Source: Malaciobacter mytili LMG 24559
Lineage (GTDB): Bacteria; Campylobacterota; Campylobacteria; Campylobacterales; Arcobacteraceae
Direction of reading: 5' to 3'
Length of the DNA: 64,000 nucleotides
Assembly: GCF_003346775.1 (NCBI RefSeq)
Contig: NZ_CP031219.1
Span: 1,240,001-1,304,000, forward strand
The notes beneath the pieces were generated by a model. The model did no database searches. It had not been told where the DNA came from and was given only the letters and a program-made list of their open reading frames with translations. This document shows positions 15,436-21,425 of this stretch, one piece after another (position 1 is the first letter of the stretch; every line of letters begins with the position of its first letter). The position numbers were made by a program, and so were the translations under genes.

Positions 15436-15455
15436 GAGGCTAGGTCTCTTATTTA
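15429..15455 (+). promoter_or_regulatory. Hairpin spanning leuB stop and the start of the next gene
   Basis: Arms 15429-15438 and 15446-15455 are 10-nt perfect complements with a 7-nt loop. The left arm contains part of the leuB stop and GAG, and the right arm reaches the A of the next ATG. It could act as a weak terminator or sequester the start site of the permease gene. No T-tract follows directly. Confidence 0.5.
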
Positions 15456-16750
15456 TGAAAACTTTTATTTCCCTTTCGGGAGTTTTCCTTTTTTTTAGTT
15501 TTATTTTTTCTATTCTTTATGAATTTAAACTATTTCCTACACTTTTTATTAGTGGTGCTTTAGCTTTTTTTAGTGCAACAATTCTTTTTCATAAATTATC
15601 CTCTTTTCAAAAAGTTTTTATTTCTTTACTTTTTTTATTAGGTCTAATATTTTGGGCGATTTCATATAAGATTAATCCAACTTTAGATTTAACAAAAATG
15701 GTAACAGCAAATCAGTTTTTATTAACACTTTTAATAGGGGTACATTTTTTAAGACTTATTTCTTTTTCAAAAAAACAAGAAGAAAAAGAGCTTCCAAGGG
15801 GTAAAAATACTTTTTTTAAAACCTATTTAAGTATTCATCTTTTTGGTTCAATTATTAATTTATCTTCTGTTTTATTAGTTGCGGATAATTTATATAAAAA
15901 AGCAAAACTTTCAAAAGAACAACTAATTGTTGTAACTAGAGCTTTTTCTTCTGATGCTTTTTGGTCTCCTTTTTTTGTTGCTTTTGCAGCAGCAATTACT
16001 TATGCACCAAATACGCAAGTAAGTCATATTATTTTTTATGGAATATTTATAGCTTTTATAGCTTTTGTTTTCACTTATTTTGAATTGAAAAAAAGTAATA
16101 TTTATAGTTTAAATAATTTTGTTGGTTATCCAATTTCTATGGAAACTTTATGGTTGCCTTTTACTTTATTGATTCTTGTTTTAATCTCTCATAATATTTT
16201 ACCAAATATAAAAGTTATAGTTTTGATTTCTTTTTTTTGTATTTTAATAACTTTTATTACTTTGTTATTTACACAACAAATTAAAGAAATAATAAATAAA
16301 TTTTCAAATCATATAGTTGAAAAACTTCCTTCTATGTATTCAGAATTAATATTATTTTTAGTTGCAGGTCTATTTGGTACAGGAGTTAGTAATCTTTTAT
16401 TGGTAAATAATATTACTTTACCTTTTGATACTTTTAATGCACTTAATGCCTCTTTAACTTTATTTGTAATTATATTAGTTTCATATATAGGAATTCATCC
16501 AATTATTTCCATTTCTATTTTAGGAAATTTATTAAATAATATAGATGCAAATCATACTTTTATGGCAACAATGTTTTTAATGTCTTGGGCTATTTCAGTA
16601 GGTGCAAGTCCTATTTCTGGATTAAATTTAACTTTACAAGCTAGATATAAGGTGAATTTAAAAGACATTTATACAATTAATATTAAATATGCACTATTTA
16701 TGTATTTTATTTGTGTTATTTTTTTAGTTGCTATTTTTAAGTTTATTTAA
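15455..16750 (+). CDS. Polytopic membrane transporter-like protein, substrate unknown
   Basis: Protein of 431 residues with about 11-12 hydrophobic segments and very short loops. The general layout, two halves joined by a charged loop near residue 280 and Gly/Ala/Ser/Pro-rich segments such as SWAISVGASPISGL late in the protein, recalls ion-transporter-superfamily permeases, but I recognise no specific family. The ATG is immediately after a hairpin that includes the leuB stop. Being behind leuD-leuB suggests, weakly, transport linked to branched-chain amino acid or keto-acid metabolism. The start is supported only by being the first in-frame ATG after leuB. Confidence 0.6.
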   Translation: MKTFISLSGVFLFFSFIFSILYEFKLFPTLFISGALAFFSATILFHKLSSFQKVFISLLFLLGLIFWAISYKINPTLDLTKMVTANQFLLTLLIGVHFLRLISFSKKQEEKELPRGKNTFFKTYLSIHLFGSIINLSSVLLVADNLYKKAKLSKEQLIVVTRAFSSDAFWSPFFVAFAAAITYAPNTQVSHIIFYGIFIAFIAFVFTYFELKKSNIYSLNNFVGYPISMETLWLPFTLLILVLISHNILPNIKVIVLISFFCILITFITLLFTQQIKEIINKFSNHIVEKLPSMYSELILFLVAGLFGTGVSNLLLVNNITLPFDTFNALNASLTLFVIILVSYIGIHPIISISILGNLLNNIDANHTFMATMFLMSWAISVGASPISGLNLTLQARYKVNLKDIYTINIKYALFMYFICVIFLVAIFKFI

Positions 16751-17747: not shown

Positions 17748-17776
17748 AAGATAAGTTAATTTAACTTATCTTTTAA
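17744..17776. terminator. Palindromic bidirectional terminator, DHH/HIT genes
   Basis: A perfect inverted repeat with 16-nt arms (17744-17759 and 17761-17776) around one central base. It contains the stop codons of both converging genes (17745-17747 and 17756-17758). A-rich and T-rich ends provide a T-tract on each strand. Confidence 0.75.
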
Positions 17777-18121
17777 AAGCTTAAAAAACTCCTCAAAAGA
17801 GGGTAGATTTAAATTTGCAACTCTTTGTTTTTTACCCCACATTGGTTCAGGGAAAAAAGAATCCTCTTTAAATCTTGCCATAATATGAAAATGTACATGA
17901 GGTACATAATTACCAAATGAAGCAATATTTATTTTTGCTGGGTTAAAATATTTTATCATCTCTTTTTCTATAATATCTAACTTGCTGCAAATCTCTTCTT
18001 TTACTTCTTTGGGACATTGACTAAATTCTTTGTAGTTTTGTATAGTAAAAATCTTAAGCCAAGGAATTTCACTCTCTTCAATTTCTATTTTAATTAATTC
18101 ATTTATATATATATAAGACAT
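17756..18121 (-). CDS. HIT-family (histidine triad) hydrolase
   Basis: Protein of 121 residues carrying the histidine triad HVHFHIMARF near residue 87, characteristic of nucleotide hydrolases/transferases that act on nucleoside phosphoramidates or dinucleoside polyphosphates. The start at 18121 is chosen because GGAAAAAGA lies directly upstream; upstream in-frame sequence to 18313 has no homology-like content and follows the probable promoter. The gene is transcribed away from the alpha ribosomal operon and converges on the DHH gene. Confidence 0.88.
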   Translation of the reverse strand: MSYIYINELIKIEIEESEIPWLKIFTIQNYKEFSQCPKEVKEEICSKLDIIEKEMIKYFNPAKINIASFGNYVPHVHFHIMARFKEDSFFPEPMWGKKQRVANLNLPSFEEFFKLLKDKLN

Positions 18122-18353
18122 TCTTTTTCCTTTAATTTTTTGGATTTTATCAAAAAAAATACTAATAGAATATAAATTGACATAATGTATAAGTAATTCA
18201 ACATACTTTAAGTTATAATTAAATATAATCCAATTCCATTTTTCAACCAAAAAGGAATTTTTTATAAAATATTTGTGTTTTATAAAGAGTTGGGCAGAAC
18301 CGGAAAAAAGCAAATAATCCTTATCTACATATAGATTTAAGGTTGTTTTAGCT
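18122..18353. other. Intergenic region between HIT gene and ribosomal leader
   Basis: No gene is seen. On the minus strand, ATAAAATCC (18142-18150) is a probable -10 for the HIT gene. At 18232-18259 there is a hairpin (AATTCC and TTTTT pairing with AAAAA and GGAATT) followed on the plus strand by T-rich sequence, so it looks like a terminator although no plus-strand gene precedes it. The promoter of the ribosomal operon should lie in this region; no strong consensus is obvious. Confidence 0.4.
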
Positions 18354-18359
18354 TGGCTC

Positions 18360-18402
18360 CGCCGATTTTATCACAATATTGTGATATGAAAAATCGGGGC
18401 GA
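18360..18402 (+). ncRNA. Leader hairpin 1 upstream of rpmJ
   Basis: Outer arms CGCC-GATTTT (18360-18369) and AAAATC-GGGGCG (18390-18401) pair with a two-G bulge. They enclose a perfect 16-nt palindrome ATCACAATATTGTGAT at 18370-18385. The stem is strongly supported by complementarity. Its role (leader regulation or protein binding site) is inferred from its position before the alpha operon. Confidence 0.55.
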
Positions 18403-18472
18403 ACTACAAAAAAGTTAGTGCAATGCACTCTTTTGAGAAAGCAAATTTGCTTTTTTCAGTGTAGTTCTTCCC
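18396..18472 (+). ncRNA. Three-way-junction leader RNA upstream of rpmJ
   Basis: A closing stem GAACTACA (18401-18408) with TGTAGTTC (18460-18467), extendable by GGG/CCC, encloses two hairpins: AGTGC/GCACT at 18417-18429 and AAAGCAAA/TTTGCTTT at 18438-18453, the latter followed by T-rich sequence. The element ends about 43 nt before the rpmJ ATG. The layout resembles ribosomal-protein leader regulators; S4, encoded downstream, is a natural candidate ligand, but this is inference. Confidence 0.55.
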
Positions 18473-18514
18473 TGTTGTAAAGTGGTAAATAACACAAAAA
18501 AGAGGACAAGACTT

Positions 18515-18628
18515 ATGAAAGTAAGAGCTTCAGTTAAAAAAATGTGTGATAAATGTAAAGTTATCAAAAGAAAAGGGATCGTAAGAGTAATTTGCGATAA
18601 CAAAAAACACAAACAAAGACAAGGATAA
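18515..18628 (+). CDS. rpmJ: 50S ribosomal protein L36
   Basis: A 37-residue protein that is easily missed because of its size. The zinc-ribbon ligands are retained (C11, C14, C27, H32) in [14 protein letters not shown] and [23 protein letters not shown] before the ATG serves as Shine-Dalgarno. It heads the alpha operon, immediately behind the structured leader and 6 nt ahead of rpsM. infA and secY, which often precede rpmJ, are not present here. Confidence 0.97.
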
Positions 18629-18634
18629 AAAAAC

Positions 18635-19003
18635 ATGGCTAGAATTGCAGGTGTTGATTTACCAAATAAAAAAAGAATGGAGTATGCATTAACATACATT
18701 TATGGTATTGGTTTACATAACTCTAGATTAATCTTAGATGCGGTTGGGATTGATTACAATAAAAGAGCTTTTGAATTAACAGAAGACGAAGCAGCAGCTA
18801 TTAGAAAAGAAATCCAAGAAAACTACATGGTAGAAGGGGATTTAAGAAAAAAAGTTGCTATGGATATTAAAGCTTTAATGGATTTAGGTTCATACAGAGG
18901 TTTAAGACATAGAAAAGGTTTACCTTGTAGAGGGCAAAAGACTAAAACTAATGCTAGAACTAGAAAAGGTAAAAAGAGAACTGTTGGTGCAGCAACTAAG
19001 TAA
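18635..19003 (+). CDS. rpsM: 30S ribosomal protein S13
   Basis: 122-residue S13, located in the head of the 30S subunit and contacting the P-site tRNA and 50S bridge. The start [14 protein letters not shown], the helix-two-turn-helix region and the C-terminal basic tail with [19 protein letters not shown] and ARTRKG are all typical. Second gene of the alpha operon; 9 nt separate it from rpsK. Confidence 0.98.
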
Positions 19004-19012
19004 GGATAACTG

Positions 19013-19405
19013 ATGGCAAAAAGAAAAGTAACTAGAAAAAAAATAGTAAAAAAGAATATTGCTGACGGAATCGTACACATTGCAGCAACATTCAACAATA
19101 CAATGGTAACAGTAACTGACAATGCTGGTAATGCAATTGCATGGTCAAGTGCTGGAAACTTAGGTTTCAAAGGTAGTAAAAAATCTACTCCATTCGCTGC
19201 TCAACAAGCAGTAGAAGATGCAATGACAAAAGCTATGGAACACGGAATTAAAAATGTTGGTATCAAAATCCAAGGACCAGGTTCAGGTAGAGATACAGCA
19301 GTTAAATCAGTTGGTGCTATGGATGGTATCAGAGTTACATGGTTAAAGGATGTTACACCACTACCACACAATGGTTGTAGACCTCCTAAGAGAAGAAGAG
19401 TGTAA
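19013..19405 (+). CDS. rpsK: 30S ribosomal protein S11
   Basis: 130-residue S11 of the 30S platform. Conserved stretches include [49 protein letters not shown] and the C-terminus THIP-like region [19 protein letters not shown] short alternative reading on the opposite strand is not a gene. It is 10 nt upstream of rpsD. Confidence 0.98.
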
Positions 19406-19415
19406 GGAGTAGGTA

Positions 19416-20042
19416 ATGGCAAGATATAGAGGACCAGTAGAAAAAATCGAAAGAAGACTTGATGCAGATCTTGGACTTAAAGGTGAGAGAAGATTAGCAG
19501 GTAAAAGTGCTTTAGAAAAAAGACCATATGCTCCAGGTCAGCATGGACAAAGAAGAGCAAAAATCTCTGAGTATGGTTTACAATTAAGAGAGAAACAAAA
19601 AGCTAAATTTATGTATGGTGTTTCTGAAAAACAATTCAGAAAATACTTTAAAGAAGCTGCAAGAAGAGAAGGTAATACAGGGGCTAACCTTATTACTTTA
19701 ATTGAACAAAGATTAGATAACGTTGTATATAGAATGGGATTTGCTACAACTAGAGCAAATGCTAGACAATTTACAACTCATGGACATGTTTTAGTAGATG
19801 GGAAAAAAGTAAATGTTCCTTCTTACATTGTAAAACCTGGACAAAAAATTGAAATTAAAGAAAAATCTAAATCAAACCCACAAGTTGTTAGATCTTTAGA
19901 ATTAACAAACCAAACTGGTATTGTTGAATGGGTTGATGTAGATAAAGATAAAGTATTTGGTATTTTTACAAGAATCCCTACAAGAGAAGAAGTAGTTATT
20001 CCTGTTGAAGAAAGATTAATCGTAGAGTTATATTCTAAATAA
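19416..20042 (+). CDS. rpsD: 30S ribosomal protein S4
   Basis: 208-residue S4, an early-assembly 30S protein binding the 16S five-way junction. Seen are the N-terminal [24 protein letters not shown], and the S4 RNA-binding domain with [20 protein letters not shown] and [15 protein letters not shown]. The N-terminal zinc-binding cysteines of some S4 proteins are absent (zinc-free type). In several bacteria S4 represses its own operon through the leader RNA, relevant to the folded leader upstream of rpmJ. Confidence 0.98.
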
Positions 20043-20057
20043 TAAATAAGGTAGCAT

Positions 20058-21056
20058 ATGAAAAAGTTTGCAGACACACCGTTTTTACCGACAGAAGTTG
20101 AAATAGAAGCTATCAGTGATACTGAAGCTAAAATATCAGCATATCCATTTGAGAGTGGTTTTGCAATAACTTTAGCTCACCCTTTAAGAAGACTTCTATT
20201 AAGTAGCTCAATTGGATACGCTCCAATTGCAGTGAAAATAGAAGGTGCTAATCATGAGTTTGATTCTTTAAGAGGTATGCTTGAAGATATAGCTATTTTT
20301 ATAATTAATCTTAAAAATATTAAGTTTAAAATCAATAGTGATGAAGAGCAAGTTATAGTAGAATATTCTTTTGATGGTCCAAAAGAGATTAAAGGTGCAG
20401 ATTTAGCTAACGCTGATGTTGATGTTGTTAGTCCAGATGCACATTTAGCTACAATTAATAGTGATTGTAATTTAACTTTCTCAATTATTATTCAAAAAGG
20501 TATTGGTTATGTACCTTCTGAAGATATTAGAGATATAGTTGGACCTGATTACATTCCAATTGATGCATTCTTCACACCTGTAAAAAAAGTTGTTTATGAT
20601 ATTGAAAAAATGTTAGTTGAAGATAATCCTAACTATGAAAAAGCTGTATTTACTGTACAAACAAATGGTCAAATTACACCAATTACTGCATTTAAAGAAG
20701 CAGTATCTGTTATGTACTCTCAAATGTCAGTATTTAATAAAGTTTTTGATTTATCTGAAGTAACTGTAAATGATTCTGGTGAAGAGCCAGTTGAATTAAA
20801 AGACTTAATCGTAAAAATTGATGATTTAAATTTAAGTGCTAGAAGCTTTAACTCTTTAGATAGAGCAGGATTAAAATATCTTGGTGAATTAGTACTTATG
20901 AGTGAAGTAGAAGTTAAAAATATCAAAAACTTAGGAAAAAAATCTTTTGATGAGATAGCTGAGAAATTAGATTCACTAGGTTTCCCAATTGATAATACAC
21001 TTCCAGAGAATATTGCGTCGGCTTTAAGAAGAAAGCTTGAACAATTAAAAGCATAG
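20058..21056 (+). CDS. rpoA: RNA polymerase alpha subunit
   Basis: 332-residue alpha subunit. The N-terminal domain for dimerisation and beta/beta-prime contact includes FAITLAHPLRRLLLSSSIG and GYVPSEDI. The C-terminal domain for UP-element and activator contact includes LNLSARSFNSLDRAGLKYLGELV and KNLGKKSFDEI. Length matches the family. Fifth gene of the alpha operon, 15 nt after rpsD. Confidence 0.98.
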   Translation: MKKFADTPFLPTEVEIEAISDTEAKISAYPFESGFAITLAHPLRRLLLSSSIGYAPIAVKIEGANHEFDSLRGMLEDIAIFIINLKNIKFKINSDEEQVIVEYSFDGPKEIKGADLANADVDVVSPDAHLATINSDCNLTFSIIIQKGIGYVPSEDIRDIVGPDYIPIDAFFTPVKKVVYDIEKMLVEDNPNYEKAVFTVQTNGQITPITAFKEAVSVMYSQMSVFNKVFDLSEVTVNDSGEEPVELKDLIVKIDDLNLSARSFNSLDRAGLKYLGELVLMSEVEVKNIKNLGKKSFDEIAEKLDSLGFPIDNTLPENIASALRRKLEQLKA

Positions 21057-21071
21057 TAGTAAAGGTTAAAT

Positions 21072-21425
21072 ATGAGACATAAGCACGGATATAGAAAGCT
21101 AAATAGAACTTCTTCTCATAGAAAAGCATTGTTAAAAAACTTAGCAATCGCTTTAATTGAAAGAGAAAAAATTGAAACAACAGTTCCAAAAGCTAAAGAA
21201 TTAAAAAGATATATTGAAAAATTAGTAACTGTATCAAGAAATGCTGATTTTAATACTCACAGACAAGTATTTGCAGCTTTACAAGATAAAGAAGCTACTA
21301 AAAAATTAATCAATGAAATTGCACCAAACTACGTAGGTAGAAATGGTGGATATACTTCTATTATCAAAACAAGAATTAGAAGAGGTGATGCTACACCTAT
21401 GGCATTTATCTCTTTTGTTAAATAA
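21072..21425 (+). CDS. rplQ: 50S ribosomal protein L17
   Basis: 117-residue L17 near the exit tunnel. [20 protein letters not shown], the [18 protein letters not shown] stretch and the final [12 protein letters not shown] are conserved. It is the last gene of the alpha operon, followed after about 20 nt by a clear intrinsic terminator. Confidence 0.98.

Follow-up and report, generated by a model that had tools for sequence, protein, structure and literature searches.

Genomic context of the alpha operon

The window, the whole 64,000-nucleotide stretch of Malaciobacter mytili LMG 24559 to which all positions refer, contains an alpha operon in which rpmJ is followed, as the preliminary description of this DNA had it, by rpsM, rpsK, rpsD, rpoA and rplQ, as judged from open reading frames and Pfam. 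Upstream, a HIT-domain protein gene (17756-18121, minus strand; Pfam E 2.7e-6) is oriented away from the alpha operon, and a predicted 431-aa membrane-like protein (15455-16750, plus strand) had no Pfam match at E 0.001. The features of the locus are as follows.

18207-18212, plus strand: upstream promoter element TTTAAG; a TTAAG-like element lies 5′ of the −10 box in 95 of 99 Arcobacteraceae loci
18224-18229, plus strand: −10 box TATAAT, start predicted at about 18236
18236-18247, plus strand: P1 5′ strand CCAUUUUUCAAC, pairing with 18474-18485 in the single-sequence fold; covariation
18248-18256, plus strand: junction J1/2 CAAAAAGGA, with RGAA before P2 conserved in alignments
18257-18268, plus strand: P2 5′ strand; covariation, and a match of covariance model R2 at 18235-18313 (E 1.6e-6)
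18279-18290, plus strand: P2 3′ strand; covariation, followed by conserved UUGG
18292-18472, plus strand: P3 arm, variable domain, with 177 nt of variable sequence in the window
18292-18300, plus strand: P3 basal helix 5′ strand GGGcAGAAC, pairing with 18464-18472
18308-18354, plus strand: P3 inner hairpin, previously called terminator-like; single-sequence folds
18362-18397, plus strand: P3 palindrome hairpin, previously called the long stem; pairing in relatives
18401-18467, plus strand: 8-bp closing stem with enclosed hairpins; minimum-free-energy folds and relatives
18464-18472, plus strand: P3 basal helix 3′ strand GUUCUUCCC, pairing in 14 relatives
18474-18485, plus strand: P1 3′ strand GUUGUAAAGUGG, whose GUGG sister families use for the pseudoknot
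18502-18506, plus strand: Shine-Dalgarno sequence GAGGA of rpmJ, read from the sequence
18515-18628, plus strand: rpmJ (bL36), first gene of the alpha operon; Pfam PF00444, E 9.2e-19
18635-21425, plus strand: rpsM, rpsK, rpsD, rpoA and rplQ; open reading frames, S4 also by Pfam

A three-way-junction leader precedes rpmJ in Arcobacteraceae

The regions upstream of rpmJ were collected from about 100 Arcobacteraceae genomes, and 99 leaders were analysed. A leader with the helices P1, P2 and P3 arranged in a three-way junction was present in the 99 loci, all taken from 5′ of rpmJ, and its conserved span in the window runs from about 18236 to 18485. The element had originally been delimited at 18360-18472, boundaries that proved too narrow, and conservation across the family resides in two blocks flanking this segment rather than in the segment itself. 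The 5′ block reads TATAAT-CC-NNN-CCAUUUUUCAAC-CA-NNN-RGAAG-[P2]-AGAGUUGG, and the 3′ block reads CCU-GUUGnAAAGUGG.

In the window, 11 of the 12 positions of the two P1 strands are paired. The mean energy of the P1 duplex over the 99 leaders was −11.4 kcal/mol when each leader was paired with its own strand, versus −8.6 kcal/mol with cross-species strands, and matched changes were observed on both sides of the helix (for example UCCAAC/GUUGGA, UACAAC/GUUGUA, CUAUAG/CUGUAG and CUGUUUUCUAAU/AUUAGAGAACAG). P2 is maintained with differing sequences in distant members of the family, and the UUGG on its 3′ side is nearly invariant in alignments across the class. Folding from the predicted start at 18236 gave a z of −4.8, with P1 and P2 forming unguided. 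The end of the junction or P3 lies 30-58 nt from rpmJ in Arcobacteraceae, and the P1/pseudoknot strand is located about 16 nt 5′ of the Shine-Dalgarno sequence. A GTG at 18482, in frame with rpmJ, was considered as a start codon and rejected, its distance to rpmJ differing among relatives.

In 98 of the 99 loci, the P1 5′ strand is preceded at a distance of 4-9 nt by a −10-like hexamer, compared with 23% in control slots, and the exact −10 sequence TATAATCC occurs in 68 of them. The arrangement of this box and the TTAAG-like element resembles the Campylobacter sigma-70 pattern. The start at about 18236 is predicted from these conserved motifs, which strongly suggest that the leader has its own promoter directly 5′ of P1. 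A start 3′ of 18472, named beforehand as the outcome that would speak against a leader RNA, is unlikely given the hexamer in 98 of 99 relatives. A second promoter at TTTTATAAAG (approximately 18278-18287) was rejected because these bases form P2, and relatives with a different sequence here (L124-L128) preserve the pairing by compensatory changes.

The P3 arm is a variable domain

The length of P3 ranges from 9 to 177 nt among the 99 Arcobacteraceae leaders, the window having the longest, and in about 40 of them P3 measures only 9-35 nt with P1 and P2 retained. All the stems originally described for 18360-18472 are present in the window at the positions given: the 16-nt palindrome ATCACAATATTGTGAT at 18370-18385 lies within CCGATTTT/AAAAATCGG, the 8-bp stem is formed by GAACTACA (18401-18408) and TGTAGTTC (18460-18467), and two enclosed hairpins are found at about 18417-18430 and 18436-18455. 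The local fold is also very stable (−39.2 kcal/mol for a 120-nt piece, z −5.1, equalled by 0 of 200 shuffles). The three-way junction proposed for this segment does fold in the window, but it is specific to this species, because the hairpin at 18417-18430 exists in this species only.

Covariation, suggested in the preliminary description as a check, was examined in 14 long-armed relatives. Most of them preserve the palindrome hairpin through compensatory changes; 86 of 91 cells were paired in its outer part and 61 of 72 in its inner part, where the pairs covary. The inner seven pairs of the 8-bp stem hardly vary, and none of them showed a double-sided change. The GUUC of this stem at 18464-18467 is also part of the P3 basal helix, which is paired in 111 of 126 cells in the same relatives and shows one compensatory change, from C-G to U-A in L059. 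This locus, from the same genus as the window, is without the 18360-18400 hairpin. The segment first described as the functional unit corresponds to an expansion of P3. A relationship to SRP RNA, prompted by CAGAACCGGAAAAAAGC at 18295-18311, was rejected: Rfam gave no match and the loop stem is unpaired.

Homologous leaders in other Campylobacteria

In most of 36 genomes of other families, the same junction was recognized by eye, composed of P1 AAACUG/CAGUU, GUGUGAAGAAU, P2, AUUGGU and P3 GGUUUAA/UUAAACC. A covariance model (R1) was built from the regions of 15 of these 36 genomes, with Arcobacteraceae left out. R1 recovered Arcobacteraceae leaders, the best being L065 (E 1.8e-9) and another L033 (E 1.2e-7), and it ranked the leader locus first in the 64-kb window, but with a weak E of 0.014 because P3 is long there. 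Of 200 genomes sampled across the class, 114 matched R1 at E 0.1. The best 30 loci of this unbiased genome scan were all located 5′ of rpsM on the same strand, and the best matches elsewhere in the class all precede rpmJ-rpsM-rpsK-rpsD-rpoA-rplQ. The leader model matched 16 of 28 named Campylobacterota loci, among them a Campylobacter isolate and Sulfurovum MAGs. It gave no match in any of the 52 ribosomal loci taken from other phyla.

A second covariance model (R2), derived from 62 leaders, matched the window locus with the E of 1.6e-6 given above and, at E 0.01, detected the leader in 176 of the 298 genomes of the class. R2 also added a locus of Nautiliaceae (L223, E 3.2e-6), a family of a different order in the same class (NCBI taxonomy). 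The named Helicobacter loci and the outgroups to which R2 was applied gave no match; the Helicobacter-type loci L217, L218, L219, L221, L157 and L158 have rpmJ-rpsM and gave no leader-model match. The leader RNA thus appears to have been lost in Helicobacter, which would mean a loss of leader regulation in that lineage. Five Sulfurimonas-type loci (L131, L140, L201, L205 and L209) show by eye a junction with a long P1, with weak or no model scores. Altogether, the comparative computations demonstrate conservation of the predicted three-way-junction leader across Epsilonproteobacteria (Campylobacteria), except in Helicobacter and some other lineages.

The position of the leader varies in a few lineages, where it lies 100-490 nt 5′ of rpmJ. 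A Hydrogenimonas-like family and one other sister family (L134, L198, L199, L147 and L207) have extra sequence between leader and rpmJ; where detected, the leader of this group is found 320-490 nt 5′ of rpmJ. The extra sequence is GC-rich in L134 and L199, both of which carry GCGTATCAAGGAG just 5′ of rpmJ.

Covariation of the junction and a sister-family pseudoknot

The support for the helices was evaluated with a tree-based null in which every column's substitutions are re-placed on a tree built on the short rpmJ gene. Class-wide, p was ≤0.0025 for each of P1, P2 and P3, with 22, 48 and 45 same-branch compensatory changes, respectively; within Arcobacteraceae, p was ≤0.0025 for P1 and 0.0125 for P2. 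Class-wide covariation counts also exceeded those of 500 shuffles in five out of five measures and those of all slid registers, in an alignment that was fitted to the model and hence leans towards it.

Many sister families have a pseudoknot between the P2 loop and the tail immediately 5′ of the Shine-Dalgarno sequence (CCACU/AGUGG, GGCACU/AGUGCC, GCACC/GGUGC, GGGAA/UUCCC). Its permutation p was <1/20000 in 37 leaders, which are related sequences, so that this value cannot be taken as a probability in the strict sense. The pseudoknot is missing from a few sister-family leaders (e.g., L164 and L163) and from Arcobacteraceae, whose GUGG tail closes a longer P1 with a CCA at the 5′ end. These computations establish, at the level of sequence comparison, the predicted P1/P2/P3 fold, its homology and the sister-family pseudoknot. 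In sister families, the loop of P3 often reads GACUCAU or similar (L141, L144 and L149 are examples), a motif absent from Arcobacteraceae and possibly a second conserved contact in those families.

Relation to known leaders and proposed function

In Gammaproteobacteria, the alpha-operon S4 leader is a folded RNA, including a pseudoknot near the first ribosome-binding site, that acts by translational control. The Campylobacterota leader resembles this Alpha_RBS element in its alpha-operon position and in the pseudoknot near the first ribosome-binding site, but it is a three-way junction (P1-P3) instead of a nested pseudoknot, and it sits 5′ of rpmJ, whereas Alpha_RBS overlaps rpsM. The S4 leader candidates of Fusobacteriales and Clostridia (PMC7247131) are likewise predicted from covariation and precede rpsM-rpsK-rpsD-rpoA-rplQ; they belong to other lineages, and their motifs, GUAA in Fusobacteriales and Firmicutes and GAAA in Clostridia, are not obvious in the Campylobacterota leader. 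The Firmicutes rpsD (S4) leader is also a 5′ leader under autogenous S4 control, but its GUAA rRNA-mimic motif (PMC7247131) is not conserved here and Rfam gave no match.

Rfam r-leader families gave no match at gathering or relaxed thresholds in the window and 20 sister loci, and this result, together with the covariation, sustains the initial proposal that the alpha operon is preceded by a novel leader RNA. No earlier description of it was found in Rfam 15 or the literature searched: Eckert and Weinberg (2020; PMC7247131) name no Campylobacterota leader, and PMC6429828, which analyses Arcobacter intergenic regions and leaves most of them unnamed, may hold this region in its supplementary lists.

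We consider it probable that this RNA is a new three-way-junction ribosomal-protein leader that represses the alpha operon translationally, with S4 as the most likely ligand. An alpha-operon ribosomal protein, most likely S4, would bind the junction at the conserved GAAGA/UUGG of the P2 base, and would stabilise P1 and, where present, the pseudoknot. The stabilised structure, ending shortly 5′ of the start codon, would hinder 30S loading on rpmJ, so that an excess of that protein over free rRNA would repress the operon. P3 would mainly close the junction and tolerate large expansions, the 18360-18472 fold being one of them. Direct ribosome exclusion fits poorly with a P1 strand about 16 nt 5′ of the Shine-Dalgarno sequence and with leaders 100-490 nt away in a few lineages.

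As to the ligand, S4 is a primary 16S binder, which argues in its favour. By contrast, the leader resembles neither the S4 leaders in Rfam nor rRNA sites, and the first gene behind it is always rpmJ, rpsM being the second and rpsD the fourth, as might suit the same autogenous leader responding to S13, S11, L17 or bL36. Comparison with the genome's own 16S and 23S rRNA gave only weak, chance-level helices, and the GUAA mimic of 16S rRNA, compared at the level of the sequence motif, was not conserved in the 99 leaders, where the base after GUGG varies; in the absence of such mimicry, the assignment rests on precedent. S4 leaders control the alpha operon in other phyla, and the listed alpha-operon leaders preceding rpsM or rpsD have S4 as their validated or presumed ligand (PMC7247131), which makes it the first candidate and a different ligand unlikely. 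Equally doubtful is a class-wide leader of new architecture that answers to a protein other than S4 (e.g., S13, S11 or bL36) and whose GUGG switches partner between the P2-loop pseudoknot and the extended P1.

The remaining readings appear less probable. A folded 5′ UTR with no protein ligand, serving solely to stabilise the mRNA or to present the ribosome-binding site, would suit a structure at the 5′ end of a presumably abundant mRNA whose ligand is putative, but the strict conservation of the junction nucleotides GAAGA/UUGG and of the pseudoknot near the start site exceeds what stability needs, and we regard it as improbable. Transcription attenuation, in which ligand binding decides whether a leader hairpin terminates, had been suggested for 18438-18453. 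The A/T hairpin followed by T's at 18438-18459 is compatible with it, as are the comparable AAAAAAGC..GCUUUUUU hairpins of long-armed relatives; nevertheless, the hairpin is absent in the many short-P3 members, its U-run makes up the 3′ arm, no plus-strand terminator-like site was called there, and no conserved terminator was seen between P1 and rpmJ, so that attenuation is very unlikely. Least plausible, and only barely so, is the local fold at 18360-18472 as the regulatory unit: its high stability and the covariation of its inner hairpin among close relatives would favour it, but the approximately 40 relatives with a short P3 keep P1 and P2, L059 dispenses with the long hairpin, and one hairpin is unique to the window.

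The literature searched contains no description of how Campylobacterota, including Campylobacter and Arcobacter, balance their ribosomal proteins, and a leader with named helices makes this regulation directly testable in the phylum. The leader also provides a case in which the core of a regulatory RNA is kept while one of its arms expands from 9 to 177 nt and a pseudoknot is swapped for an extended stem.
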